Below the pieces are notes generated by a model, which worked only from the letters and a program-made list of their open reading frames with translations, searched no databases and was not told where the DNA came from. This document shows, piece by piece, positions 5,913 through 26,252 of a stretch of 26,484 nt of DNA (the first letter of the stretch is position 1; each line of letters begins with the position of its first letter). Source of the stretch: a virus; IMG/VR virus record IMGVR_UViG_3300032516_000168, positions 1 through 26,484 of that record. One strand, written 5' to 3'. The translations under genes and the position numbers were made by a program.

Positions 5913-5929
5913 GTTGGTTTTATTGGTTT
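5913..5929 (-). promoter_or_regulatory. Tandem AAACCAAY leader motif upstream of the 65-aa gene
   Basis: On the minus strand AAACCAAT is followed by AAACCAAC with a 9-base period, ending 3 bases before the ATG. The same octamer occurs in tandem before the genes starting at 11359 and 15007, and singly before those starting at 24869 and 682. Function unknown; it may be a translation-initiation or RNA-binding element, since no Shine-Dalgarno sequence is present. Confidence 0.45.
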
Positions 5930-6479
5930 AGCATGTACTACATGTCATCTTACCTAAAAGCTTTATGGCGTAATTATATAACTCCATACCTTTTTCAGCA
6001 TGATGACAAAATTCTACTTCAGCCTTAGCAGCTAAAAGTAATTGTTGAATATATCTGATATCTTCTAATTTCTTTTTAATGGATACAGGAGGATCACAGG
6101 TTCCTAAATCGAGGTTACAATAGACTCCTTGAACTTTATTAAGTGCAACAGTTATTCTTAAATGATTGTATTCTACATAAACTATCTCATTAGGAGATAC
6201 ACTATATCTAATAATATAAATACCATCTGGAAGATCTCTGTAACTATTTCCACAATCAGCAGTTTGCATCTCTAAGTCACAGGCTGTAAGATTAAGATTA
6301 AATCCTATACTTATAGTCGTATCTGTAAAATTTACAGGATGAGTAAATCCTGGAGGAGTTACTTGTAATAAAGGACATACTGGAGCTGAATTGGGATTAT
6401 ATACACTCGTGTCCTGAATTCTCAGGATACATTTATTGAGTGTATCTGGTGCTTCTACGCTTAAGACATTTTGTGCCAT
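5928..6479 (-). CDS. Conserved-type phage structural protein, function unknown
   Basis: 183 aa, first gene after the terminator/promoter pair at 6504-6544, so it probably leads the tail/adhesin transcript. The N-terminal ~120 residues are predicted beta-sandwich (ISIGFNLNLTACDLEM, LPDGIYIIRYSVSPNE, YNHLRITVALN). The C-terminal ~55 residues are helical (KKLEDIRYIQQLLLAAKAEVEF) and end with CHH...CSTC, a possible metal or disulfide cluster. The beta-plus-helix layout with a shared Cys style fits a tail-assembly or adaptor protein that anchors the following adhesins; this is inferred from position only. No enzymatic motif is present. The stop codon overlaps the AAACCAA leader motif of the next gene. 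Confidence 0.68.
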   Translation of the reverse strand: MAQNVLSVEAPDTLNKCILRIQDTSVYNPNSAPVCPLLQVTPPGFTHPVNFTDTTISIGFNLNLTACDLEMQTADCGNSYRDLPDGIYIIRYSVSPNEIVYVEYNHLRITVALNKVQGVYCNLDLGTCDPPVSIKKKLEDIRYIQQLLLAAKAEVEFCHHAEKGMELYNYAIKLLGKMTCSTC

Positions 6480-6566: not shown

Positions 6567-7928
6567 TTAGTCAGGAATAATAGTACAGTGTACACATGCT
6601 TGAGTTTCCATAGTAACACAGTTAGCACAATTAGTTAACCATGTATTCATGAATGCCTCGAATGCAGCATTAGGTGTATTAACAATTACTTCTAACATAT
6701 AACGATCGTCATCAAATGTTCCAGTAGGATTATTGAAACGAGGTACACTATGTAAAAGAAAGTAACGAACATATAAAGCATTACGATTAATCGCGTTTAA
6801 GATTTGATCACCTTGTGTGATTTCACGAATACGGATATCTGTAGCAAAGAAGTTTTGTAAGTAAGATTCTGACATAATTAAGTCACGAAGTACTTGTTCT
6901 CCAAAGCCCATACCTTGTTTACCTAAACAATCGTTATATACACAAAGTCCTTCAAATACGCAAGGATCTCCAGTGTAATCTACTAATGAAGCATAGATCT
7001 TAACGATTTCTTTTTCAAAGAAGTCAGTGATTTGGAAAGAACAGTTACCAAACTTAGTTTCGATATAAGCACCGAATAAACGCATACCTGCTTGACAAGT
7101 ATTTGCTAAAGCTGGTGTCCATGCTAAAGCTTGAGCAGAAGCTGGATAATTATCCCACCATTGTGCTGGAGTTACAGGAGTATTTAAACCATCATAACTT
7201 ACAGTTGTTCCTGGAGCATACCATGCTACTTGAGTATAGTCATAAACTACAGGCGCTACAAAAGACTTAATATAATCATTGATTACTAAAGCTTTAGCCC
7301 AACTAATATAAACTGTAGTAGGATCTACTGTTGTAGGTACAGGACCTGAACAACATCCTGTATAAGCAGATAATGTTTGGTAAGCATTGTGATTTAAGAA
7401 ACGTAATGCAGGAGAACCCTTAACATCAATACGTAAATAGTAAGTCTCACCACAAAGGAAGTCATAACAACAATTTGCCTGAACAGTACCTCCTTGGAAG
7501 TTTTCTACAGGTAATAATGGAATAGCTGTTTGAGGAGTAAAACCTACTGAAGCAACGGATTGCTGAGGTACACAAGTATCTACACGGTAAAAACGGTGTA
7601 TGTACTTAGGATTGATTACTTTAGACTTGTTAGTCTCTTGGTAACCACCGATAAAAGGACTGATCTTATCTTTGCTATACAAAGAAGAAGAAGCTAATAA
7701 TAAAGGACAGCAGTTGTCTGCAGTCAAAATATCTTTAGCTAAGTAAGTGTTTGGATCAAACATACCGAAGTATCCTGGTCCTAGCAAAGCTACTACCGAA
7801 GTAGGAGTTCCTGCTGTTGTAATAAATCCATCAGTTGAGTGAGGATTTGCTGGGGTGTTAGGACCCGCTGCGCGAGTAACACCTGTTCCAAGAAAAATCT
7901 TGGTAAATGCGTGATTAAAATAAGCCAT
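6567..7928 (-). CDS. Abundant virion structural protein (453 aa), exact role unknown
   Basis: 453 aa, flanked by its own intergenic leader (7929-8004) and a strong terminator, so it looks like a separately controlled single-gene unit. It has many Cys residues (DNCCPLL, QANCCYDFLCGETYYLRIDVKG, TNCANCVTMETQACVHC). Its C-terminal third contains GFGEQVLRDLIMSESYLQNFF and a CxxC ... CVHC tail. Nearly all arginines I checked use CGT/CGC and none AGA, whereas TerL uses AGA freely. The same bias is seen in the major capsid gene, which suggests very high expression. The leader is A-rich (AAAAACAAAAAAAC before ATG). From memory this resembles a family common in uncultured environmental phages, whose function I cannot name. 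Candidates are a main tail or collar protein, or a second capsid-lattice protein. Confidence 0.78.
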   Translation of the reverse strand: MAYFNHAFTKIFLGTGVTRAAGPNTPANPHSTDGFITTAGTPTSVVALLGPGYFGMFDPNTYLAKDILTADNCCPLLLASSSLYSKDKISPFIGGYQETNKSKVINPKYIHRFYRVDTCVPQQSVASVGFTPQTAIPLLPVENFQGGTVQANCCYDFLCGETYYLRIDVKGSPALRFLNHNAYQTLSAYTGCCSGPVPTTVDPTTVYISWAKALVINDYIKSFVAPVVYDYTQVAWYAPGTTVSYDGLNTPVTPAQWWDNYPASAQALAWTPALANTCQAGMRLFGAYIETKFGNCSFQITDFFEKEIVKIYASLVDYTGDPCVFEGLCVYNDCLGKQGMGFGEQVLRDLIMSESYLQNFFATDIRIREITQGDQILNAINRNALYVRYFLLHSVPRFNNPTGTFDDDRYMLEVIVNTPNAAFEAFMNTWLTNCANCVTMETQACVHCTIIPD

Positions 7929-8004
7929 GTTTTTTTGTTTTTATAAATATATAAGGTTAATATAAGTAATATTATTGTATTATGCAAATCTTTTTTAAAA
8001 TGTT

Positions 8005-8535
8005 TTATCCTCCCATTTCTTCATCTAACATTCTTAGAGCTATCTTATCATCTCCAAAAGTGTTAAGCTTATCTAACCAGGTCTGAGTTTTATCATGTTC
8101 CTCCACCTGTTCTTTCAAATAACGCATACAAAGTTCATATAACATATGATCACCTTCCTTTAAAGCACCACTAGCCATCACCTTGATTTGCTTAGTAACT
8201 ACTATTTCATGATCATAAGAAGCTCTAATAATTGCGGGCAAACCTTCAAAAGTAGTAGGTTGAACAGCAAGAACGGGTGTAGACGGAGTAACACCCATGG
8301 CCAACAAGTACTCACGAGCCCAATCTGAATGAGTCATTTCCTCATCAGCATATTTTTTCCACAACTTTGCGGCGCCCGTATATCCTTCATTATTTAACCA
8401 CATTGACATGGATAAGTAAAGGCGTGAAGATTCTTCTTCTTGTTGGATACGATATTGTAAGTTCTTAATACAATGGTCATCAATCATTGGATTGTGAGTC
8501 TTTTTGTACGGTCTTTTTAAAAAATCTGTTGCCAT
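8005..8535 (-). CDS. Ferritin (bacterial non-haem FtnA-like) with intact ferroxidase centre
   Basis: 176 aa, close to the ~165 aa of bacterial ferritins, with an N-terminal extension of ~17 basic residues. The four-helix bundle pattern is complete. Against E. coli FtnA the di-iron ligands can be placed one by one: E33 (E17), E66 and H69 in DEEMTH (E50, H53), E110 in YDHE (E94), Q143 and E146 in KEQVEEH (Q127, E130). All are present, so iron oxidation and storage is expected. It is therefore neither a decayed copy nor a Dps, which would carry a different inter-subunit site. The gene lies 2 bases after the stop of the connector-like gene and just before the 453-aa virion gene, inside the structural block. 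Estimated GC (~40%, by eye) is a little above its neighbours, which may mean separate acquisition. Whether the protein is packaged, part of the virion, or acts in the infected cell cannot be told. Confidence 0.9.
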   Translation of the reverse strand: MATDFLKRPYKKTHNPMIDDHCIKNLQYRIQQEEESSRLYLSMSMWLNNEGYTGAAKLWKKYADEEMTHSDWAREYLLAMGVTPSTPVLAVQPTTFEGLPAIIRASYDHEIVVTKQIKVMASGALKEGDHMLYELCMRYLKEQVEEHDKTQTWLDKLNTFGDDKIALRMLDEEMGG

Positions 8536-8537
8536 AA

Positions 8538-9239
8538 CTAGTTATTATTTTCTACTGCCTGAGTTGCTCTTTGTACTTGATTCATCGATTCTATATCTCC
8601 TGCTAAAATCTTAACAGCTTCATCTATAAAGACTTCTACTAGATCATCTTTAAATTCTGAATCTACAGTCGTAGTAGAAAGTACTCCAGTATATGGATTA
8701 ACTATTCCTGCTATTTGGATTCTTGTAGGTTGTTTATAATAAGTAAGCTGAGGATTAACTACCTCAAACTCACCATTAGTATAGATCTGGATCTTATTAG
8801 TCTTTTGTGTACAGAAAGTCTCTGCCCACTCAAAACTAGGTTTCTTATTCTTATCTCTTAATAAAATATCTACATTGGCTTCTTCTGCTAAATAAATAAC
8901 TAAAGGCCGAGCATCAGGACAACAATCATTCTTTCCAGAAGCGGATAGTCTTTTCCACTGTAAATAATCAGCAGGTCTATCTATCTCATAGAAGGTCTCT
9001 CTATTTACAGGTAAAAGATTAGTGATTGTAAGTAATACTTCTAAATCATCTACGCGACGATTAGATTGTTCATCACCTTCTTTTACTACATTTAACCCAT
9101 GAAGATTTCTTCGACACCAGTCTACCTGGCCCTTATTAAAAGCCTCAACAATCTGCCATGACTCGATATTATCGTAATCATTTGACGACAACTTATTGAT
9201 TCGTTCTTTAACTTTAATAAGAATAGTAGTGTTAAGCAT
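8538..9239 (-). CDS. Putative head-tail connector/adaptor protein
   Basis: 233 aa. The N-terminal ~85 residues are helical, with ERINKLSSNDYDNIESWQI, EAFNKGQVDWCRRNLHGLN and a DDLEVLLT segment. The central and C-terminal parts are mixed alpha/beta: LPVNRETFYEIDRPADYLQW, the Cys pair DCCPDARP, then TYYKQPTRIQIAG. The last helix (DLVEVFIDEAVKILAGD) is amphipathic. The E-x-F-N-K-x-Q-x-x-W-x-R-R pattern resembles connector/stabilisation proteins of crAss-like and related Bacteroidota phages; that is recollection, not an alignment. Its place after the head genes fits an adaptor or ring role. The ATG shares one base with the stop of the next small gene (TAATG). It ends with TAG just before the ferritin gene. 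Confidence 0.62.
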   Translation of the reverse strand: MLNTTILIKVKERINKLSSNDYDNIESWQIVEAFNKGQVDWCRRNLHGLNVVKEGDEQSNRRVDDLEVLLTITNLLPVNRETFYEIDRPADYLQWKRLSASGKNDCCPDARPLVIYLAEEANVDILLRDKNKKPSFEWAETFCTQKTNKIQIYTNGEFEVVNPQLTYYKQPTRIQIAGIVNPYTGVLSTTTVDSEFKDDLVEVFIDEAVKILAGDIESMNQVQRATQAVENNN

Positions 9240-9583: not shown

Positions 9584-9973
9584 TTACTTCTTTTTAGATT
9601 TTGAGGCACCACCTTTTTTAAAGTATGTAGCTATTGTTGCACTACTGCTAGGTTTAGAAGGACTAATATCTTTTCTCTTTATACTTACAGTCTTGTTTTT
9701 TTGAGGAGCTACTGTTATATTCTTAGTCGTAGTAGAAGTAGAATCTTTCTTTACGGGACCTCCTGTCTGTTTCTTAGCTACAGTAATTCTTACAGATCCT
9801 ACTCTAGCTGTATCTTTACCTACAGGTGCATTTACTTTAACTACATCCATGTTCATGGCATCCATTCTAGCTTTAGTCTTTGCAGCGGCTGCTTTATATA
9901 AAGAGTCTCTTCGCGCTTCTTTAGCTTGACCAGGACTCATACCACCTGTTTGTTTCTTTGCTAACTTTTTCAT
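9584..9973 (-). CDS. Lys-rich low-complexity protein with KKQTGG repeats
   Basis: 129 aa from ATG 9971-9973, one base after the upstream TAG. An in-frame GTG 18 bases further up would overlap that gene and is not preferred. The motif AKKQTGG appears twice (residues ~5-11 and ~66-72). The chain is strongly basic, low in hydrophobic residues and ends in YFKKGGASKSKKK, so it is probably disordered. An Ala-rich helix (QAKEARRDSLYKAAAAKTKARMD, taken as ~17-39) may be the only ordered part. The likely role is a minor head protein or DNA-binding internal protein; that is inferred from composition and from the neighbouring 47-, 53- and 55-aa basic genes. Confidence 0.65.
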   Translation of the reverse strand: MKKLAKKQTGGMSPGQAKEARRDSLYKAAAAKTKARMDAMNMDVVKVNAPVGKDTARVGSVRITVAKKQTGGPVKKDSTSTTTKNITVAPQKNKTVSIKRKDISPSKPSSSATIATYFKKGGASKSKKK

Positions 9974-9974
9974 A

Positions 9975-10142
9975 CTAACAAGCTTTACCACCCATCTTCT
10001 TAGATGGAATAGCGCCTTTTGGAGCTGTACTCTTAGGTCCTGTAAATTTTACAGAAGCACTCTTTGAAACTACGGCGGCCTTATTAAGTTTTTTATTACC
10101 TGTTGGTTTTGTAACCATCTTAGCTTTGATATTTTTTGCCAT
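9975..10142 (-). CDS. Very small Lys-rich protein (55 aa)
   Basis: 55 aa from ATG 10140-10142 to TAG 9975-9977. It is basic and Gly/Pro-containing (MAKNIKAKMVTKPTGNKKLNK, read as two halves around VTKPTG, ending SKKMGGKAC). The VTKPTG/VTKPGG element is shared with the 53-aa protein next to it, suggesting tandem duplication and divergence of a small gene. It lies 3 bases after that gene and 1 base before the 129-aa gene. No function known; a DNA- or capsid-associated minor protein is likely. Confidence 0.6.
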   Translation of the reverse strand: MAKNIKAKMVTKPTGNKKLNKAAVVSKSASVKFTGPKSTAPKGAIPSKKMGGKAC

Positions 10143-12048: not shown

Positions 12049-13674
12049 TTAGAAGCTTCCTCCTGTAATAGGATTACGCATCACAATCTTCAGAACTTTG
12101 GTTGGATCTTTTACCCAGATTGCAGGCATTGTCTGACTCATCATCACACGATATCCATTAAACTGACCACTAGATTGGAAACCTTGGGTACGACCCATGT
12201 AATCCATAGTACCATTTTGATACCACCATTTAAGTTGATTATCCCAAGATAACTTCAACAAGAAGATGTTATCATTACCTGTATCAGTGATATCAAAAAT
12301 CACGAAGCTGTATGAGCTTAATGGATTTCCATCAATGATTGGATTCTCGATATCATTAGTATGTAAGTTATCGAAAGCTGGATTTAATACAAACTTAACG
12401 TTAGCTAAGAAAGGAATAACGTAGCTAGTGAAAGCAAATCCGTAATTCAAATCCATACCTTGACCAGTGATTGCTCCGATACCATTGTTGCTAGCTGCTT
12501 GAATAACTAAACCTGAGTTTACTGCTTCACGCTTGATAGCCTCGTTAACTAAACGCATTCCACCCATTCCGGTTTGTACGATTAATTGACGCTTAGGATC
12601 TGGACCTTGGAATTCCACACGACCTGCGTAGAAGTTATAGATCTCACCACGGAATAATTCTAAAGAGAAAGTTGCTTTGTTATATACACGCTTGAATGAG
12701 TTGTCTAATTGTTTCCAAAGACCAACTGATAAACGCATATCATCTGGACCATCTTGTTTAAGACGACCACCATGTCCCCACATTAAGTAACTTTCGATAT
12801 CCGTAGAAATCTTAGTTAAGTGAGCTGCTTCCATAGTAGTTAAGAAAGTACGAGTTAAAGTACCATTTCCTACTGCGCGCTTTAAATAATCTTTACCCAT
12901 CTTAGATGCAATATCTTCGATTTTAGAGATAGACGGATCTAAACTCTTATCAAAGTTACGCCAGATCTCAGTTACAGGAACAGTACCATCTGCATGCATA
13001 CCACCTTTTAACATTAAATCTGCACGAGACGAAATAGAGTAATGAACGTGAGCTTCTGCACCTCCTACGAAGTTATAGAATTCACGGAAACCTGCTTTAG
13101 TTTGGATATCAGAGAATCTCTCGCCGTATTCACCACGAGCAGAACCTTTTCTAAATACCTTAGTTTGAGGAGATAAGTATTTGTTCTCTAGGAACTTATA
13201 GTTATCGTTATTTACTAATTGTACAGTGTAGATGAAAGCATCACCCAAAGGTAAGATATCATCAGCTGTGATGTACATCTCAGCTCCATTGTACTTGTCA
13301 AAAGTGATGATATCACCATGACCAAACTCGCGTTTGTTAATCTTGATTTTGAAAGTTGTACCGTCAACACCTTTAGCTAAGTTAGCTGGCTCGATATCTT
13401 CGATGATATAAGCTAAGTCTTGGGATACTGGTGTTTGCCATTTATACTCACCACGAGCGTTATCCACCATGATAACGTTTTTACCACCAAATGAAGATAG
13501 TTGATAAAGAGGCATTTCAACCTTCTGAGTCATTGCCCAGATGTCTACTGGACCTAAGTCCATAGGTTCTGCATCTTTTAACATGTTCACTAAGTGGTAT
13601 GAGTCTACGTGAGAACTAGCATTGTAGTTCGTATCACGCAAGAACATACCATTGTTTAATACTGGAGTTGCCAT
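12049..13674 (-). CDS. Major capsid protein (HK97-fold expected)
   Basis: 541 aa. It is identified mainly by position, size and expression signature. It follows TerL, portal and an acidic scaffold-like gene in the canonical order. It has a long helical/beta mixed chain with EYGERFSDIQTKAGFREFYNF, a region FSLELFRGEIYNFYAGRVEF, and a C-terminal beta-rich end (TKVLKIVMRNPITGGSF). Arg codons are mostly CGT, unlike most neighbours, as expected for the most abundant virion protein. The leader is A-rich (AAAAAAACAAGAAAA before ATG) without Shine-Dalgarno. It is expected to form the hexamers and pentamers of the head. I saw no N-terminal pro-domain typical of self-scaffolding MCPs, consistent with a separate scaffold. 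Tandem hairpins follow the stop. Confidence 0.85.
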   Translation of the reverse strand: MATPVLNNGMFLRDTNYNASSHVDSYHLVNMLKDAEPMDLGPVDIWAMTQKVEMPLYQLSSFGGKNVIMVDNARGEYKWQTPVSQDLAYIIEDIEPANLAKGVDGTTFKIKINKREFGHGDIITFDKYNGAEMYITADDILPLGDAFIYTVQLVNNDNYKFLENKYLSPQTKVFRKGSARGEYGERFSDIQTKAGFREFYNFVGGAEAHVHYSISSRADLMLKGGMHADGTVPVTEIWRNFDKSLDPSISKIEDIASKMGKDYLKRAVGNGTLTRTFLTTMEAAHLTKISTDIESYLMWGHGGRLKQDGPDDMRLSVGLWKQLDNSFKRVYNKATFSLELFRGEIYNFYAGRVEFQGPDPKRQLIVQTGMGGMRLVNEAIKREAVNSGLVIQAASNNGIGAITGQGMDLNYGFAFTSYVIPFLANVKFVLNPAFDNLHTNDIENPIIDGNPLSSYSFVIFDITDTGNDNIFLLKLSWDNQLKWWYQNGTMDYMGRTQGFQSSGQFNGYRVMMSQTMPAIWVKDPTKVLKIVMRNPITGGSF

Positions 13675-13717: not shown

Positions 13718-15007
13718 TTATCTTTTAAAGAATCCTGCGGGTCTTGCTAAACCTGTAGTCTTCTTACCTGTACCTCTTTGCTCATTTTCATCTACTCCAT
13801 TTCCTGAAGAGGTATTCTTATTAGCTTCTTCTGTTTTAAGTTTTCTAACAGTATCTGCTGTAACTTCTTTTTTAGTAGTCTCTCTAACTTTAGCTTTGTA
13901 TCCCTCGGGATCTGCTAATAACCAAAGAGCTTCTGCAATACGACCATGATCAGGCTCAATCCATTGATACTTTTCTAGTAAGTGACCTAACATGTTAGTT
14001 TTGGCGCCTTGTCTAGAAGTATAAGCGGGATTAATTAATCCGGCATATAACATACTTTGAGATTTCTTATCAAGCTTAATACCATTGATATTATCAGAAT
14101 CTAATACTTTATATACATCTTCTGTATAAGCTTTAGTCTGAGCTTGATACTGTCTCATTGCTCCTTCTTGTTGTTTAAGAATCCTATCACGCTCTTGCTC
14201 TTTAAGAGCTGTAAGTTTAGGTTGGAAGTTATTAAACTTCTTCTCTAATAGATCCTGATCTTTCCACTCATTAAGTTGTTCCTGGATTTCATCAGCAGTA
14301 CCAAATTGAGTAGCTGTAAGATAGTTCCTAATAACCATTTCTTGAGAGGCTTCAGACTTACCATCTACTTCGTAGACTTCTCTTACATCGGCTAGTTTTT
14401 TAAATAAGCCTTTTAGATCTTGTCCACCATTAGCTACGTAACTTGCAGCGAATTGTAGTTCTTCTGGTAAGTTATCAAAAAACGCAGTAGAAAGATCCTT
14501 CTGCATCTTTTCTTCTTTAGCTTTATTATTCTCCTTATAAAGATCTTCAAAGTCTTTTAAGGTATACTTGTCTATAGGAGTATCTCCTTCAAAAGCTGTA
14601 AGTAAACCTTCTTCAATAAGTTTAGTAGTAAGTTCTACTATACCTGTTGCTCGTCCACCTTTTTTATTAGGATCTGGTGTACCACCTTCATCCTCTTCGC
14701 CTTCTTTCTTACCCAGATTATCTAGTAAGTCTGCACCAGCTTGAGTAGATGCTGGAGTAGGATTAGCAGCTGCAGCTTTTGCGGCTTCGGCAGCTTTCTT
14801 CTTTTCAGGATCTGCTTCATCTCCTTCTCCTTCATCAGGATCGGGATTGTCAAGGAACGTCATGTCCATTTTTTTATTCGAGAAGATGGACGGCTTCTCT
14901 GGTTTCTTTGTGCCGTCAGGAAGAAGAGCTACGTCTGCTCCTGGTTGGGCTAACAGAGTGTTGATATCGATATCAGCCTCTGCTACTGTTGTTTGGGTAT
15001 TACTCAT
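13718..15007 (-). CDS. Capsid scaffold-like protein, acidic and helical
   Basis: 429 aa between portal and major capsid genes. Residues ~50-120 are very acidic and Ala/Pro/Gly-rich, probably disordered (DNPDPDEGEGDEADPEKKKA). A helical section follows with many charged residues (EEKMQKDLSTAFFDNLPEEL, LTALKEQERDRILKQQEGAM). The C-terminus is a short basic patch (GLARPAGFFKR). Acidic disordered segment, long helices and a basic C-terminal capsid-binding tip are the usual layout of phage scaffolds, which line the procapsid and leave before packaging. Position supports this. The gene has its own -7 box (15056-15063) and a tandem AAACCAAC leader. An alternative is a permanent internal head protein. 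Confidence 0.7.
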   Translation of the reverse strand: MSNTQTTVAEADIDINTLLAQPGADVALLPDGTKKPEKPSIFSNKKMDMTFLDNPDPDEGEGDEADPEKKKAAEAAKAAAANPTPASTQAGADLLDNLGKKEGEEDEGGTPDPNKKGGRATGIVELTTKLIEEGLLTAFEGDTPIDKYTLKDFEDLYKENNKAKEEKMQKDLSTAFFDNLPEELQFAASYVANGGQDLKGLFKKLADVREVYEVDGKSEASQEMVIRNYLTATQFGTADEIQEQLNEWKDQDLLEKKFNNFQPKLTALKEQERDRILKQQEGAMRQYQAQTKAYTEDVYKVLDSDNINGIKLDKKSQSMLYAGLINPAYTSRQGAKTNMLGHLLEKYQWIEPDHGRIAEALWLLADPEGYKAKVRETTKKEVTADTVRKLKTEEANKNTSSGNGVDENEQRGTGKKTTGLARPAGFFKR

Positions 15008-15135: not shown

Positions 15136-17901
15136 CTATTTCTTTTTCTTAGCAGGCTCTTTTTTATCAAACTTATTTTTATTAACTTCTGCGATCTTGA
15201 GATCTATTTGCTTAAGTCTATCTTGAGCTGCTATTTTCTCACGTTCTATTTGTAATCTATCACTATCACTCTTTACTTTATTAGTCTCTTTACTAGTCTG
15301 TAAGTTCATATTAGCTTGAAACTCTTCAGAGTTTTTAATCTCTCCTAAGGCATCTAAGAAGTCACTCTGTTTATTCTCATTAATGTCTTGCATGGCACCA
15401 TAACCTGCGGCTCTGATTTCAGCAACTAAAATATCTCTTCTACGATTCTTCTCAGCTTCTAGATCTTTATGATCAATATCCATCTGCTTCTCTTTAAGAC
15501 GAGATTCAATCTCCATTTGCTTAAGCTTCTCTTGCTCTTGGTAATCTTCTTGACGAACCTTGTTAGCTTTTTCTTCAGTGGCTTTAAGACTGGTGTTAAT
15601 CTCTGCCATAGATTCAGACTGCATGATTTTTCCTAAATCGAAAATACTAGCTCCTGCTGTATTATTTGTTACAGCTAATTTCTTAATCTCTTCTACCATG
15701 GCTCTAGTATTAGACTTCGTAGTAGCAAATACATTTATATCACGTAATAGAAGATCTGTGCCATTCATCTCGAAGTTTACTTTTTCGTCCTTACCTGTAA
15801 TATACTGTAATCTGAAAGAAGGTTTAGTAGAGTTATAGTATTGAGCTAAGTCTGTACGCATCTGATGTATACGAGGCATTAAATGGTCGCAGTGTTGTAT
15901 AAAATACTTTTCTGTTTGTGCATAGGATCCTACTACAGACTGCTCTACTCCTGTAGCTGTTTGTGTTTGACCTATTTGTTGACCTAATCTTTGTGGAGTA
16001 ATACCAATTACTTCATAGCATTGTTGCTTAAAATAAGTAGCTAGTTGAACCCTAGACATCATACGTTGAGTCTGCTCTAAGTTCATTACTTGAAAGTGTT
16101 GGAAGTTTAAAGCATTCTCTGTATTAGTAATGCTAGTATCTAAGGGTAACATAGAAAAATCTTTCATAGCTACATATGCTTTAGCAAGATTATTCTTTCC
16201 CCAATCCTCTCCAAGAGAGTGCTTAGGTAAAGCATTTTGATCTAACATGATTACGGTACCTAGTTCATCTACTAAGATATCAGCAATTTGATTATTTACT
16301 ATGTTATAGCCAATCTGGAAAGGCTTCATTAAATCAACCATAGAACTAGAGCGAGTATTACGATCATTGAATACAGCGCCTTCTACAGGTAGTTTACAGC
16401 CATAAAGAGAGTTGTCTCCTTTAAACTGAAACTTAAGAGGGCCCAATGTATTACGACCGATGCCTAAGTACATCGGATTGATACCTCCTGGATTATTCAT
16501 ACCCCAGAAGCTTGGTTGGTTAGGACCTATCTTTACTCCACCCCATACTTCATTAATCCAGATCCAATCTATATGTTCTCCGAATACTAGATTATCTTTA
16601 GTCTTGTTCTTTATTAAAATAGTATTGTATAATGGCTTATCAGTTATTTTATATTCTTCACTGATAATATCTGTTATAACTTCTCCTTCTTCAGTAATCT
16701 TTGTTAAGTGACCTACTTTTCTTTGTGACTTCCAGTAAGCTGTTGTACAACGAAGTAGGAAAGCTGCTCCCATGGGTGCGTAATCTTCACTTTCTGACAT
16801 AATCCACTGTACAATATCTCCTCCTTCAAATATGAAGTTATTATACATAGATGTAAACTGTCTATAGGCTAAGCCTGGCATATTTGTATTCCATTCATGA
16901 GACTTAGTAGCGTCATAATAACTACCATCATTTTGATATCCTTGTAATGGATAACCTGCAGATCTTACAGGATAAATAGCTTCTAAAGATTCTAGTTGTT
17001 GAGTTGTCATTAAGTAACCATACTTGTCTATAACATCGGCTACAGTAAGCATGTCTATACGACCTACCCAGTTACCCTCGGATATATATCTTGAGTCTGG
17101 AGATTTATGATAAAATGTAGTAACCGGATTCCATAGTTCTATATCGTAATCATCTTCATTCATCTTAAAGTGCCAGAACTCACGATCAGTAATAAGCATA
17201 TCTCTAAAGCCTCTTTGCTCTAATTCATCCATCCGGAATCTTTCTTCATCTACTTTATGTTGATGAACTGCCCATTCTTCACACATGCTTCTATAGTCTT
17301 TTACAAAAAACTCTTGAATTTCTGGTAAAGTCTTAAGATTTTCTGGAGACAACTGTTGGTCCATCTGTTGTTTAGCTTCAGGATCATTAGGATCCATACC
17401 AGCTTCTAACATCTTAGACATTAGTTTTTGCTGAGCATCTTGTAATAAGACTCCTTCTATTTGAGATCTTTTTTGTTCTAGTAATTCGTTATAGGAAAAT
17501 TCATCGGCGCCTGTGAATGTAACTTTAGTATTACGCTTAGCGAATTCCGCTATCATAACATTGATCACGTTAGGTACTATAGGATAAAACTTTAACTCTA
17601 AAGCACTTACATCTTCTTGAGTAAGAGTCTCTATAATATCCGTCATCTCATTATCTGTATTTACAATATAATCAGACTTATCTATTTGACCATCAGCAAG
17701 TTTGTAATTCTTCATTAAACGACGAGCATTACGACGAAGTTGCTTTAAACCGTTCCATTCTGTCCAATCCATGTTCCAGGCTGTCCACTCAGGATCTTTA
17801 TCTTTTCTTGATAAGAATTGAAGAGGTTGAGTAATAGAGCCCATACGATTGTATTCGGCTTTCTTACCAGACTTTAATTGCATCGCGTTGAGAACTTCCA
17901 T
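15136..17901 (-). CDS. Portal protein (large, crAss-like size)
   Basis: 921 aa, immediately downstream of TerL (6-base gap), where tailed phages place the portal. The dodecameric portal forms the vertex through which DNA is packaged. The N-terminal part has WTAWNMDWTEWNGLKQLRRN. The middle is rich in Trp/Tyr and beta (GNWVGRIDMLTVADVIDKYGY, HIDWIWINEVWGGVKIG). A block around residue 560-660 has the helix-rich wing/stem character of portals (GIGRNTLGPLKFQ; SMVDLMKPFQIGYNIVNNQI; GITPQRLGQQIGQTQTATGVE). The last ~145 residues are a very charged, probably coiled-coil tail (KQMEIESRLKEKQMDIDHKD) ending KKKK. That tail may project into the capsid as a barrel or interact with the scaffold or cargo. 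Size and the charged C-terminal extension fit crAss-like portals. Confidence 0.82.
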   Translation of the reverse strand: MEVLNAMQLKSGKKAEYNRMGSITQPLQFLSRKDKDPEWTAWNMDWTEWNGLKQLRRNARRLMKNYKLADGQIDKSDYIVNTDNEMTDIIETLTQEDVSALELKFYPIVPNVINVMIAEFAKRNTKVTFTGADEFSYNELLEQKRSQIEGVLLQDAQQKLMSKMLEAGMDPNDPEAKQQMDQQLSPENLKTLPEIQEFFVKDYRSMCEEWAVHQHKVDEERFRMDELEQRGFRDMLITDREFWHFKMNEDDYDIELWNPVTTFYHKSPDSRYISEGNWVGRIDMLTVADVIDKYGYLMTTQQLESLEAIYPVRSAGYPLQGYQNDGSYYDATKSHEWNTNMPGLAYRQFTSMYNNFIFEGGDIVQWIMSESEDYAPMGAAFLLRCTTAYWKSQRKVGHLTKITEEGEVITDIISEEYKITDKPLYNTILIKNKTKDNLVFGEHIDWIWINEVWGGVKIGPNQPSFWGMNNPGGINPMYLGIGRNTLGPLKFQFKGDNSLYGCKLPVEGAVFNDRNTRSSSMVDLMKPFQIGYNIVNNQIADILVDELGTVIMLDQNALPKHSLGEDWGKNNLAKAYVAMKDFSMLPLDTSITNTENALNFQHFQVMNLEQTQRMMSRVQLATYFKQQCYEVIGITPQRLGQQIGQTQTATGVEQSVVGSYAQTEKYFIQHCDHLMPRIHQMRTDLAQYYNSTKPSFRLQYITGKDEKVNFEMNGTDLLLRDINVFATTKSNTRAMVEEIKKLAVTNNTAGASIFDLGKIMQSESMAEINTSLKATEEKANKVRQEDYQEQEKLKQMEIESRLKEKQMDIDHKDLEAEKNRRRDILVAEIRAAGYGAMQDINENKQSDFLDALGEIKNSEEFQANMNLQTSKETNKVKSDSDRLQIEREKIAAQDRLKQIDLKIAEVNKNKFDKKEPAKKKK

Positions 17902-17907
17902 AGTATA

Positions 17908-20109
17908 TTATCTTATGTTTCTAAAAGGATTACGAGGGGGCTTTTTACCAATCATACTTCCAGAAGTCGATCCCATATTACGGAATAGACTCTTGGGTAA
18001 TTTATACAAATTTTCTGACTTATCCAAATGTTTCTTACTAGTCTTATCTATTCTTTTCTTATATCCACGGTTAGCTTGTTGTACTTTAGCAAAGGCTATT
18101 AGTGCTGCTAAAGATACTAATCTATCGACGTTTAAACCTTCTCGATAAGCCATCATTTCTTTCATAGCCATACCATCAGGTATTCTTTCTATACCGTAGA
18201 CTATCTTAACAACAGTACCATCTTCTTTGGTCTCTTCATCTATTTGCTCTCTTAAAAACTCTATAAGATAACTTAAGAGATGCGACTTAAATAAAGTTCC
18301 GGTGTTCTTCCATCCGTAATCGCTATAGACAGATCTATTAGATCCCAGATCTTTTAAGAATAGAATCTGATCTTTTGGTACTAGATACTTTTGTTTCCGC
18401 TTGCTTATCATGTACTGGATAAATAGAGAGATGTTATTCTCTACTATTGTCCATGCATTATACCACTCGATCATAGACTCCAGTCTTTCATGCGTCTTAG
18501 TGATATCGTCAAAACGTCCACACCAAGAAGCTACAATCTTATCTCTCTCAATATAACTAGTTATCTCTTCTCCATCTATCTTGGTAACTTCTACTGGATT
18601 CTTATATATGAAAATAGAACAGAGTGAATCTGAAGTAGTAGTCTTTCCTTCACTAACAGGGTCAATACTAGCATAGTAGGTACCCCATTCTGCATTAAGA
18701 TCGGGCTCTTCATAAACCACAATAACACCAGTTTTATCCTCTGTCTTCTTCGTTATAGGAAACTCAAGTATAGGGAGTTTATTAGTTGATTTTACTTCCC
18801 AGGTATTATCTTGTCTTTTATTAATTTCTACAAATTTATACGAGTACTCTTTTTCATCTATCCTCCTTTGCTGCGCGGCAACAAGATGAGTAGGAAATAT
18901 AGATACGGTTCTTGTAGCAAAAGCTTCTTTTATATTACGTGGATGCTGAGAAATCTCTAGTTGATATTCTTGAGGAGCTAAGTCTTTCTTCTTTTTAGCA
19001 AAGTATTCATCAAGCATCTTAAGAGCTTCTTCTACTTTAGAATTACCGAATTCATCTACACATGGAGGCATGGACCATTGCTCTGGAATGAATAGACCAG
19101 ATTTACCAAAAGTATTGTGTTCATCTAAGAGAGTACTTTCGACATAGAAGATATCATTAGCCTCTGGATTTATAATCATGTTATTGAGGGGCTCGCACTG
19201 ATCTAAATCACCTACAGAGCCTGCCGCTATAAAAGTACCGGTAGTAATCATACCAGACTTAAGAGCAGGCTTCATGAATCCAAAAGTCTCCATCATATCT
19301 GGAGCTACTCCAGCCTCTTCATGAAAGAAGTAAGTACAGGGTCCACCAACACCTGCTGTAGCATCCTGATCAAAAGAGGTTCCTTTAAGAATACCTTTAA
19401 GACCTTTAAGAGTTTTTCTTGTACTTCCTGGAATAGTAATTTCTATTTGTTGTTGCCAATCTAATACTTTACCTGGATTCATTGGACGATACCATGCGGT
19501 ATTCTCGTCTAAGAAGTTTTTATATTCTACTAAGAACTTCCAAGTATCATTAACATATACTTTAAGAGAGGCTCCCATCTTTAATATAGGTGTCTCTTCA
19601 AACCAGATCTGATTGATAAACTTAGCTGCATGAAAATAAGAAGAAGCTATCTGACGTTTCTTTAAGATAGCACAGTGTTTATAATATAACTCTGCTAATA
19701 GTTCATAGAGGGCCATGTGATATTGAGCATCTCTAACATCCGCAAAAGCAAATGCTCGAGTCTCTTTATTATTAATAGGCAAGAAGTTTAACCACATGTA
19801 ATACTCTCTAGTCAAGAACCAAGTCTTACCTTTATTATGAAAGAGTACTCCTTTTCTACAACGTCGTTTTTGCTCATCCCAAAAAGCACTGTAATCCTTA
19901 CTTCCATTAGGGACAGCTATATAAAATTTATCTTTGTTATATTGCCTAGCTTGTTCATTAAATATAAAAGAAGTCTCGTCGAAATTATATAATCCAGGCT
20001 CCTTAAAAAGAGTAAGTATATAAGTTCTAAACTCTTCTCGAGAAGTAAAAGAAGTATTAGTCCATACTCCATTATCCCAAGTAGGAATATCTTTATAGAA
20101 ATCTAACAT
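17908..20109 (-). CDS. terL: Terminase large subunit
   Basis: 733 aa packaging motor with ATPase and nuclease domains. The ATPase part has a deviant Walker A at 150-157 (KKRQIASS, where canonical terminases have R-x-x-G-K-T/S). Walker B and the catalytic Glu are in FFHEEAG (261-267), and a coupling-type ITTGTF is at 288-293. The C-terminal RNase H-like nuclease has its acidic residues where expected: D483 (YYASIDPVSEG), E557 (WTIVENN) and D662 (NVDRLVSLAALIAFAK). An insert-rich ~730-aa length is large for a terminase but usual for crAss-like phages. It is coupled to the upstream 77-aa gene by a one-base overlap and is followed by the portal gene. The GK-to-AS substitution in Walker A is the main oddity. 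No small terminase is certain in the window. Confidence 0.93.
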   Translation of the reverse strand: MLDFYKDIPTWDNGVWTNTSFTSREEFRTYILTLFKEPGLYNFDETSFIFNEQARQYNKDKFYIAVPNGSKDYSAFWDEQKRRCRKGVLFHNKGKTWFLTREYYMWLNFLPINNKETRAFAFADVRDAQYHMALYELLAELYYKHCAILKKRQIASSYFHAAKFINQIWFEETPILKMGASLKVYVNDTWKFLVEYKNFLDENTAWYRPMNPGKVLDWQQQIEITIPGSTRKTLKGLKGILKGTSFDQDATAGVGGPCTYFFHEEAGVAPDMMETFGFMKPALKSGMITTGTFIAAGSVGDLDQCEPLNNMIINPEANDIFYVESTLLDEHNTFGKSGLFIPEQWSMPPCVDEFGNSKVEEALKMLDEYFAKKKKDLAPQEYQLEISQHPRNIKEAFATRTVSIFPTHLVAAQQRRIDEKEYSYKFVEINKRQDNTWEVKSTNKLPILEFPITKKTEDKTGVIVVYEEPDLNAEWGTYYASIDPVSEGKTTTSDSLCSIFIYKNPVEVTKIDGEEITSYIERDKIVASWCGRFDDITKTHERLESMIEWYNAWTIVENNISLFIQYMISKRKQKYLVPKDQILFLKDLGSNRSVYSDYGWKNTGTLFKSHLLSYLIEFLREQIDEETKEDGTVVKIVYGIERIPDGMAMKEMMAYREGLNVDRLVSLAALIAFAKVQQANRGYKKRIDKTSKKHLDKSENLYKLPKSLFRNMGSTSGSMIGKKPPRNPFRNIR

Positions 20110-22972: not shown

Positions 22973-23245
22973 TTATAGTTTTTCTGATTTCCACTTAGCA
23001 CCATCTGGGTGAGGACATTCTGAATCTAAAGATCTGAGTTTTACAGACTCACTACAACCACATTGACCACAGCAAGGACCTGTACCAGGAACTAAGCATT
23101 TACTTCCTACTACGTCTCTTAAAGGACAAGCTACACAGATCTTTAGTCTCTTGTAATATATTTTTTCTATAGGATCTCTTTTAAAGATCTTATTCAGTAA
23201 TCCTGCTAGTATCAGGAATTTGCTCTGCCATATCTTTTTTAGCAT
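22973..23245 (-). CDS. Cys-rich putative metal-binding protein
   Basis: 90 aa from ATG 23243-23245. A longer frame upstream would only enlarge the overlap with the HU/IHF gene, which is already 56 bases. The N-terminus is a hydrophobic helix (IWQSKFLILAGLLNKIF). Then comes RLKICVACPLRD, KCLVPGTGPCCGQCGCSES and ECPHPDGAKW, giving nine Cys: C-x2-C, C, CC-x2-C-x-C and C. The spacing suggests two zinc or iron-sulfur sites. I recall similar CCG-CGC small proteins in large phages and Bacteroidota, without a function. The hydrophobic N-terminus could attach it to a membrane. Confidence 0.6.
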   Translation of the reverse strand: MLKKIWQSKFLILAGLLNKIFKRDPIEKIYYKRLKICVACPLRDVVGSKCLVPGTGPCCGQCGCSESVKLRSLDSECPHPDGAKWKSEKL

Positions 23246-23612
23246 AATATTCTTCTCTTCTTTTTCTAGTTTCAAACTTACGAGTAGATTCACTATCTAG
23301 CATCTTAAAAAGATTACTAAATTTATCTACTCTTTCTTGTACACTCTTACGTATGGTAACCATCTTAAAACTACTAGAGTCCGATAATTTTTTTAACATA
23401 CGTTGATACTTTTCATGTATTAAGGTAATCTTTTTTCTTTTTACTTTAAAGGTTCCTAGTCCTAGTACATGTATATTAATAAAAGTAAGCTCTGATAAGT
23501 TTCTTCTAACTTCTTTATAATAATGATCTACAGCAGCCTGTACTAAGCTCTCCGATACTCCTAGTTTAGTAGCTACTATTTTATACATGTCTTTAGGCTT
23601 CTTGGGTACCAA
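23190..23612 (-). CDS. HU/IHF-like DNA-binding protein with C-terminal extension
   Basis: 140 aa. The core aligns with the HU fold: a helix-turn-helix start (DMYKIVATKLGVSESLVQAAVDHYYKEVRRNL) followed by beta strands with INIHVLGLGTFKVKRKK, matching the V-x-L-x-G-F-G-x-F signature at the base of the DNA-binding arm. HU is ~90 aa, so the last ~50 charged residues (FETRKRREEYYAKKD) are an extension. I start at TTG 23610-23612 because this supplies the first HU helix (KPKDMYK). The first ATG (23586-23588) would cut it and leave only three residues before the conserved block. The TTG overlaps the upstream gene by 20 bases. An IHF-like protein near the packaging genes is a known feature of crAss-like phages. 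It may bend DNA in replication, packaging or transcription. Confidence 0.75.
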   Translation of the reverse strand: MVPKKPKDMYKIVATKLGVSESLVQAAVDHYYKEVRRNLSELTFINIHVLGLGTFKVKRKKITLIHEKYQRMLKKLSDSSSFKMVTIRKSVQERVDKFSNLFKMLDSESTRKFETRKRREEYYAKKDMAEQIPDTSRITE

Positions 23613-24105: not shown

Positions 24106-24567
24106 TTATGGTTTAACTGCTTGAAAATGCATATAATCGTATCCCTTCTCTTTACCTAAAGAATACCATCCGTGTTTATAGAAAATATCGATCATAGGTT
24201 TATAAGGGGCATCGTCAAAGATTGCTTTATCTGCATGCATGGTTAAGTCATTATCTGTAGGATCTAAGTCTATGGCTATTCCCCAAGAGTGTACACTCCA
24301 CTCAGATCCATTACGCATCTTGCGAAAGTTATAGCATCCTCCAAATCTATCAATCTTAAGTTCTTGTAATTTAGCTAATCCATAATGACTTAAAAGATCT
24401 TTAAAGATAGCTTGCATAGTGGTAGCTACTAGTTTATGACACTGAAGCTTTGTTACAGTATGAGTAAGATCCCATGATATCTTCATAGGATAGGGTAGTT
24501 GAATAACTACCAAATTCTCTACTTCGCCTGGGGCTCCATAAAGTTTAGTGATATCTGCAGAAGTCAT
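24106..24567 (-). CDS. M15-family D-Ala-D-Ala carboxypeptidase/endopeptidase-like endolysin
   Basis: 153 aa. The M15 (VanY/M15_4) metal site is complete: S-x-H at 91-93 and D100 in SVHSWGIAIDLDP, then GYDYMHFQ with D144 and H147. This zinc-dependent fold cleaves peptide bonds in peptidoglycan cross-links. There is no signal peptide, so release into the cell wall would need a holin or similar; the membrane protein at 25012-25467 is a candidate. Length is close to small phage M15 endolysins. The gene shares one base with the stop of the 100-aa gene (TAATG) and belongs to the transcript from the promoter at 24893-24923. It may instead be a virion-associated lysin used at entry. Confidence 0.88.
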   Translation of the reverse strand: MTSADITKLYGAPGEVENLVVIQLPYPMKISWDLTHTVTKLQCHKLVATTMQAIFKDLLSHYGLAKLQELKIDRFGGCYNFRKMRNGSEWSVHSWGIAIDLDPTDNDLTMHADKAIFDDAPYKPMIDIFYKHGWYSLGKEKGYDYMHFQAVKP

Positions 24568-25473: not shown

Positions 25474-26019
25474 TTACTCTATTATAAAAGCATTGTTTTT
25501 ATTTAAGTATCTTAAATAATCTTGAGGGAACGCTATAGAAAGATTATTAAACTCCTCTGTCACCATCCCTAAAGTTATAGCATATTCAGCATCAAGTGCC
25601 GAGCAAATACTTGTATCTCCGCGAAGTCTTATCTTAAGTTTTGTTTTACAAAGTCTATTGATAAGTTCTTTGGTACCATTAATAAAATCATATTTTATCC
25701 ACTGATTATCTCCACGAGATAAAAGTTTAGCTAGTTGTTCTTTTATTAAATCTTTGTCTGCCGTAGGTCTAAGTATCTTAAAATCTCCACCTTTATATCC
25801 TTTTATTCTCCAAGAAAGTCTGTCTGATTGAACTCCGTTTGCGTTGGAATCTTCAATAAATAAAGCACCATGACTTTTGAATATAATACCTGTATGATTT
25901 GCCCATGATTTATCACAATACTGAATGAGCTTTGCTAAAATACCTCGACCATGGAATATAATAATATCTCCATCCTTTATTAAAGGTCTAAGATTATTGT
26001 ATTTTTCTTGAATAGTCAT
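25474..26019 (-). CDS. Circularly permuted NlpC/P60-like (YiiX-type) cysteine hydrolase
   Basis: 181 aa from ATG 26017-26019, rather than 14 codons earlier inside the previous gene. The permuted papain-like order is visible: a start with IKDGDIIIFHGRG (GDI motif, 17-19), the catalytic His in NHTGIIF (H42), an acidic residue in LFIEDSN (E56), and the catalytic Cys late, in SICSALDAEYA (C139). In YiiX/YebB-type members His precedes Cys, as here. Substrates of this group are peptidoglycan stem peptides or acyl/amide bonds of lipids or peptides. In this phage, cell-wall cleavage at lysis or entry is the likely role, given the nearby M15 peptidase and membrane protein. No signal peptide. It follows the zinc-ribbon gene by 23 bases and ends 6 bases before the membrane protein gene. 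Confidence 0.78.
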   Translation of the reverse strand: MTIQEKYNNLRPLIKDGDIIIFHGRGILAKLIQYCDKSWANHTGIIFKSHGALFIEDSNANGVQSDRLSWRIKGYKGGDFKILRPTADKDLIKEQLAKLLSRGDNQWIKYDFINGTKELINRLCKTKLKIRLRGDTSICSALDAEYAITLGMVTEEFNNLSIAFPQDYLRYLNKNNAFIIE

Positions 26020-26042
26020 ACTCTTATAGGTTAAATATACTA

Positions 26043-26252
26043 TTATACGCGTTGATTCCAAGCAGTTAATACTGTATTAACATCATCTGTATTCATTGTA
26101 AAAGCATGCTCATTCTCACACATGATTAGTGGAATATCATTTCCATCTCTTATGTTCTGAAACTTGGTCAAATAAGCTGTAGCTCCACAATGAGGACAAA
26201 ACTGATTTGAGCCAGGAGGTAAAGCTTCTAAAGGGAATTTCTCGTAAAACAT
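26043..26252 (-). CDS. Small zinc-ribbon-like protein
   Basis: 69 aa. A CPHC knuckle (FCPHCGATAYL) is followed after ~25 residues by MCENEHAF, giving C-x2-C and C-x3-H as four possible zinc ligands. The N-terminus is short and hydrophobic (YEKFPLEALPPG) and the C-terminus is polar (MNTDDVNTVLTAWNQRV). Small zinc-ribbon proteins like this are common in phages, as DNA-binding or assembly factors or with no known role. It follows the QKFW-repeat gene by 11 bases and precedes the permuted hydrolase. Confidence 0.62.
   Translation of the reverse strand: MFYEKFPLEALPPGSNQFCPHCGATAYLTKFQNIRDGNDIPLIMCENEHAFTMNTDDVNTVLTAWNQRV

Follow-up and report, generated by a model that had tools for sequence, protein, structure and literature searches.

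Phages of a crass-like group carry a predicted iron-storing cage protein at one fixed place in the virion gene block. It belongs to either of two kinds, a ferritin or a Dps-like protein. Judged from a tree of the neighbouring connector protein, ferritin and Dps have replaced each other at least about 20 times. Both proteins begin with the same short peptide, and the retention of this peptide through the swaps suggests a cage fixed to some component of the phage and not loose cargo. The ferritin from which this account starts is encoded in the window, i.e. the whole stretch of 26,484 nucleotides of viral DNA that was analysed (IMG/VR record IMGVR_UViG_3300032516_000168).

The ferritin gene lies on the minus strand at 8005-8535 and is a complete open reading frame, from ATG to TAA, of 176 amino acids. 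The protein scores over the curated cut-off of the Pfam Ferritin family PF00210 (E=2.9e-22, 79.6 bits, cut-off 24.5), and its best relative of solved structure is the ferritin of V. cholerae (3qz3, E=3.4e-20). The AlphaFold2 model (mean pLDDT 90.2) comprises a four-helix bundle with a fifth (E) helix at residues 164-175, and superposes on 3qz3 with an rmsd of 0.9 Å over 159 columns. The ferroxidase ligands are E33, E66, H69, E110, Q143 and E146, which we take to be the equivalents of E17, E50, H53, E94, Q127 and E130 of E. coli FtnA; the register is taken from the alignment, with an offset of 16 residues. The residues of the bacterial third site are also present, as E65, E142 and E145. Across 46 phage ferritins none of these nine iron-site residues varies. 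The median pairwise dN/dS of the ferritin is 0.10, and the corresponding values are 0.17 for Dps, 0.09 for the capsid protein, 0.14 for the connector and 0.26 for a neighbouring protein of 453 aa. With its iron site intact and under purifying selection, the window ferritin appears to be functional. A preliminary description of this DNA had proposed a complete ferritin with the six FtnA-type ligands, maintained by purifying selection, and each of these points was borne out. Dozens of homologues in synteny rule out chance as an explanation of the window ferritin.

The protein shares with bacterial Ftn (3qz3, and E. coli FtnA, 1eum) the fold, the five helices and all of the ferroxidase and third-site residues. 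It differs in having an N-terminal tag and linker, in its setting within a phage head/connector cassette, in sequence (about 28-32% identity) and in belonging to a separate clade. In a tree with 52 bacterial ferritins, those of Bacteroidota included, a branch with an SH-aLRT of 99 sets the phage ferritins apart from the bacterial ones (one contig, L212, was mis-trimmed, with 19% of columns filled, and its placement was disregarded). The question of whether phage ferritins form a clade of their own or nest within those of Bacteroidota is thus answered by separation from the bacterial ferritins sampled. The nearest nominally bacterial ferritin, from a Sulfuricurvum MAG, is encoded on a contig that is itself phage-like. 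This MAG includes two phage-like contigs (L352 and L506) with ferritins that are 47% and 34% identical to that of the window. We also note that two ferritin-bearing GenBank entries named 'Bacteriophage sp.' (MT839617.1 and MT838721.1) seem to derive from bacterial contigs. Bacteria universally have ferritins, and a recent capture from the host, or contamination by host sequence, might be considered. Given the dozens of syntenic viral homologues across many contigs and the separate phage clade, we regard this as extremely improbable, and the contamination or recent insertion for which the preliminary description had allowed finds no support.

The window phage is crAss-like on the sequence of its head genes. 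The major capsid protein (12049-13674; all window genes given here are on the minus strand) belongs to the crassvirus family (PF23898 Crass_capsid, E=8e-31, 107 bits against a cut-off of 27), and the portal protein (15136-17901; phrog_6547, E=1.4e-84) and terminase large subunit (17908-20109; phrog_6681, E=1.1e-52) are also crass-like. A probable scaffold or head protein (13718-15007) is encoded between the portal and capsid genes and has a profile match to a structural protein of csAssE-Sib (E=1e-7). The crass-like order TerL-portal-head protein-MCP-...-ring protein is therefore present in the window. By capsid, the closest annotated phage is Leptolyngbya phage Lbo-JY46, at 28%.

The 5′ neighbour of the ferritin gene encodes a ring/adaptor (connector) protein (8538-9239; phrog_29507). 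This matches the profiles of the csAssE-Sib 'ring protein' (E=2e-23) and of gp062 of Cellulophaga phage phi4:1 (E=3e-21), a virion protein by MS/MS. The two genes are separated by 2 bases, in agreement with the close coupling to a connector-like gene that had been described. The 3′ neighbour encodes a protein of 453 aa (6567-7928), a predicted virion protein by synteny, related to a protein of 631 aa in the equivalent place in Lbo-JY46 (E=6e-6). Two genes downstream of the ferritin is a virion protein of 183 aa (5928-6479), with profile matches to phi4:1 gp056 (E=4e-8), structural by MS/MS, and to a csAssE-Sib structural protein (E=7e-11). Since the homologues gp062 and gp056 are structural by MS/MS in phi4:1, the ferritin lies inside the virion gene block, as had been proposed. 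A search with PF00210 revealed no ferritin in Lbo-JY46 or phi4:1; in csAssE-Sib it gave a weak match under the cut-off, inside a frame of 962 aa. Elsewhere in the window a very basic protein with a repeated KKQTGG motif is encoded upstream of the ring gene (9584-9991), and by eye we recognize HU/IHF-like (23190-23612), peptidase M15-like (24106-24567) and permuted NlpC/YiiX-like (25474-26061) proteins.

We define the slot as the place between the ring/connector gene and the gene of the 453-aa protein. The slot-bearing crass-like phages considered here are all uncultivated contigs, often fragments, and some are near-duplicates. In a first pass ferritin homologues were found on thirty viral contigs, nearly all of them in the slot. 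Relatives were gathered by a capsid search and a connector search, both blind to the content of the slot. The capsid search gave 80 loci, many of which lack ferritin and have a gene of 141-172 aa in the slot instead, and the connector search gave the same picture. When each connector/slot combination is counted once there are 77 unique complete slots, of which 51 hold a Dps-like gene, 13 a ferritin and 13 nothing of that size. Most of the last group are gaps of 73-120 bp, and with 13 of the 77 slots empty the function is dispensable. In three cage-less slots (L283, L292 and L293) small Lys-rich ORFs, some of histone-H1-like composition, lie just past the connector. Plain presence or absence of ferritin was rejected as a description once the replaced slots were read and the Dps-like gene was found there. 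Absence of the gene at this locus in relatives had been named as a finding that would count against the ferritin; many close relatives do lack it, but they usually have a Dps-like cage instead, with no signs of decay.

The Dps-like slot protein matches phrog_858 (about 1e-16 to 1e-21) and Pfam DUF5856. The phrog_858 match was found in eight Dps-bearing contigs and in neither of two long ferritin contigs tested. The best score of the slot protein with PF00210 is 24.1 bits, below the cut-off of 24.5, and since its family is DUF5856/phrog_858 we call it Dps-like rather than Dps. The model is a four-helix bundle, and Dps proteins make up most of the top 50 Foldseek matches in the PDB (TM up to 0.69 and probability about 1.0, with E-values of only about 5e-3). 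The Dps ferroxidase residues H-x11-H-x14-D-x3-E (spacing 12/15/4) are invariant in 85 of 85 Dps-like proteins; in one of them (L041) they are H47, H59, D74 and E78. The protein belongs to a different subfamily from the window ferritin. phrog_858, the 'starvation-inducible transcriptional regulator' (T4-like rI.-1), is the family found in the same slot of most relatives. The slot protein shares the ferroxidase spacing and the main fold matches with Dps and differs from it in the phage tag and the PF00210 score. RB49-type rI.-1 is annotated beside the lysis-inhibition gene rI, unlike the slot gene, which lies in a head cassette.

At their N-termini both the ferritin and the Dps-like protein carry a tag, hydrophobic-K/Q-R near residue 7 (often with the consensus MEKPRMLKR), followed by a flexible linker that extends for 8-40 aa between motif and core in relatives. 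In the window ferritin the tag is residues 1-9 (MATDFLKRP, codons at 8509-8535; motif [LIVMFY][KRQ]R), the linker is residues 10-16 (8488-8508) and the core is residues 17-176 (8008-8487), with all nine iron residues and the fifth helix. Taking the first ATG as the start of each protein, the motif is found within the first 22 aa of 34 of 42 slot ferritins and 75 of 81 slot Dps-like proteins (i.e. it is missing in eight and six respectively), compared with 35 of 889 unassigned ORFs. The corresponding Fisher values of 3e-35 and 7e-77 are descriptive only, because the motif was spotted before counting. It is near zero in most families flanking the slot. Identical starts such as MEKPRMLKR occur on both proteins, and a further motif, ISRP, is common to the linkers at differing positions. 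The N-termini are disordered in both models. A few contigs carry ferritin and Dps in tandem in the slot, and in the tandems of the window lineage the motif has been lost from the Dps; in L212, L214 and L225 (about 7881-8938) LKR is kept by the ferritin only. A scan of most of three long contigs of relatives (G004, G021 and G014) for further ORFs with the tag revealed no convincing third cargo. The net charge of the tag is +1 to +2, with the R invariant and the K mostly present, and given this mildly basic character it may bind nucleic acid. The N-terminal extension that had been remarked upon is real (about 16 residues) and meaningful, but it is a conserved short motif with a variable linker rather than merely a basic DNA-binding tail.

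On the connector tree (166 rows) the slot state requires 34 changes, compared with an average of 51 for shuffled states; the Dps label requires at least 27, of which 21 are forced by well-supported branches. Two pairs of contigs illustrate the exchange. In L246 and L311 the DNA of the connector and of an 11-codon tag (MAEQPRNLLKR) is 100% identical, the breakpoint falls directly after the tag codons, the cage bodies that follow are unrelated, and identity returns at 97.3% in the next gene. For L267 and L290 the break lies at the stop codon of the connector; the cage bodies differ and so do the tag codons, and LKR is kept. The motif therefore survives both exchange after the tag and swapping of the whole gene. 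In both families the tag is often encoded as TTA AAA AGA, so that part of the sharing may reflect recombination and not selection.

A second lineage of Crassvirales, whose capsid is that of a canonical crassvirus (PF23898, E=1e-132), has ferritin and/or Dps between the portal region and the scaffold/MCP genes. Here the two proteins share a different tag, M-DIN-K; the starts are MALDINK on both proteins in L012, MALDINS and MIDINK in L224, and MALDIAK and MININK in L218. We do not claim several independent entries of ferritin into this lineage, as a single clade was not rejected (p-AU 0.56). Two other contigs that are crassviruses by capsid (L030 and L031) have a ferritin after the portal region without the DIN tag. 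Beyond the crass-like group, two P22-like podophages (DSL-LC05 and ctNMl277) have a Dps-like gene of phrog_858 that overlaps the portal gene at its end (L538 4504-4866; L539 4528-4890). Taking the core Crassvirales, L030 and L031 and these podophages together, linkage of ferritin-superfamily proteins to portal and head genes is wider than one clade. In a different phage (L029, 9962-10450) a ferritin lies between genes of 3316 and 1374 aa.

The intact iron sites, the purifying selection, the fixed slot, the repeated swaps and the shared tag are shown by the sequences. From them we infer with moderate confidence that the slot encodes an outward-tagged ferroxidase cage that is made late, docks to some component of the virion or of its assembly and limits Fenton damage there. 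The cage would be made along with the head and connector proteins. N-termini are on the outside of the cage in both Ftn and Dps, and these (24 per ferritin, 12 per Dps) would bear a docking peptide specific to the phage lineage on its flexible linker. The tag would tether the cage to the scaffold, the portal, the ring or the capsid interior. The tethered cage would remove free Fe(II), and in the case of Dps hydrogen peroxide also, so that packaged DNA and the proteins of the particle would be spared Fenton damage. We propose that either ferritin or Dps will serve, since what the phage needs is an iron-oxidizing cage of whatever kind, provided that it has the tag. At 12 nm an intact ferritin cage should be too large for the portal channel, and a cage packed in the head would therefore act in the particle or during assembly, and not be ejected whole. 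It is possible, although we put this more tentatively, that an HK97-type head takes up the cage by means of an N-terminal address, the enzyme being exchanged and the two lineages using different addresses.

Alternatively the cage could be a soluble antioxidant that lowers Fe(II) and peroxide in the host cytoplasm during virion production, placed in the virion operon only for late expression, with a tag that serves translation start context, solubility or cage stability. Ferritin works without a partner, and the ROS-defence genes already described in phages, Dps among them, are read in this way (PMC8008677, PMC6802176). We nevertheless think this unlikely, as it leaves unexplained both the one phage-specific peptide on two cages through many swaps and the second lineage with another slot and another shared tag. 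It is less likely again that the tag acts like the Lys-rich tail of E. coli Dps, binding phage DNA so that the cage coats or condenses it while it replicates or once it is packaged. The invariant R and frequent K of the motif, the Dps-like nature of the replacement and the Lys-rich ORFs in a few empty slots favour such a tail, but a net charge of only +1 to +2, a motif that is strict (hydrophobic-K-R at about residue 7) and not generally basic, and the non-basic M-DIN-K of the core Crassvirales speak against it. The tag might also be the mark of a recombination junction, a conserved 5′ end that provides microhomology while the peptide has no function; the break just after the tag codons in L246 and L311, and the prevalence of TTA AAA AGA, could be so read. 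This we consider highly improbable, since the whole-gene swap between L267 and L290 keeps the motif with other codons, ISRP is shared by linkers at different positions, and a different tag is used in the second lineage. Both the DNA-binding tail and the relic of recombination are thus disfavoured by the DIN tag and by the L267/L290 pair.

Iron in tails, i.e. a Ferrojan horse in which an iron-loaded cage at the tail exploits host iron uptake, was among the earlier suggestions. It has been proposed for phage tails, and one study reported a ferritin, assigned by Phyre2 at low identity, in the virions of Vi01-like phages, which in that study showed no dependence on TonB/FeoB (PMC10892097). The genes to which the slot gene is linked are those of the ring, portal, scaffold and capsid, nothing here supports iron in tails, and we give the idea practically no weight.

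The preferred reading, a tagged cage docked to the phage, may be compared with known systems. In encapsulin systems the gene of an HK97-fold shell is linked to that of a ferritin-superfamily protein, which bears a short peptide resembling a targeting signal. This peptide usually lies at the C-terminus, and the cargo protein does not close into a cage of 24 or 12 subunits. In the slot proteins the conserved peptide is N-terminal, the Ftn core with its fifth helix matches caged ferritins and not cargo of the encapsulin type, and packaging in the phage head is a proposal. Heads of Crassvirales store cargo proteins near the portal in phi-crAss001, where the known cargo consists of gp45, gp46 and subunits of RNA polymerase and includes no iron cages (PMC10172136). 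Ferritin-superfamily proteins with a proposed role in oxidative stress include Dps and Mn-catalase in 'Gratiaviridae' and Lactobacillus phages and ferritins counted among the ROS genes in freshwater phages; the available portions of those reports describe neither swapping in a fixed virion slot nor a shared tag (PMC8008677, PMC6669764, PMC6802176). In the open-access literature on crass-like phages with ferritin or Dps we found no account of slot swapping.

So far, phage ferritins and Dps have been catalogued as stress genes, with no evidence as to where they act. In these phages evolution has repeated a domain-swap experiment in which the cage changes and the address stays, and this points to a docking site. 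The iron content of virions is directly testable in this widespread group of crass-like phages, and there is a possible link between phage heads and the iron compartments of encapsulins. If the tag is indeed an address, it would constitute a viral counterpart of the loading of encapsulin cargo, and might be used to load other proteins into these widespread phages.
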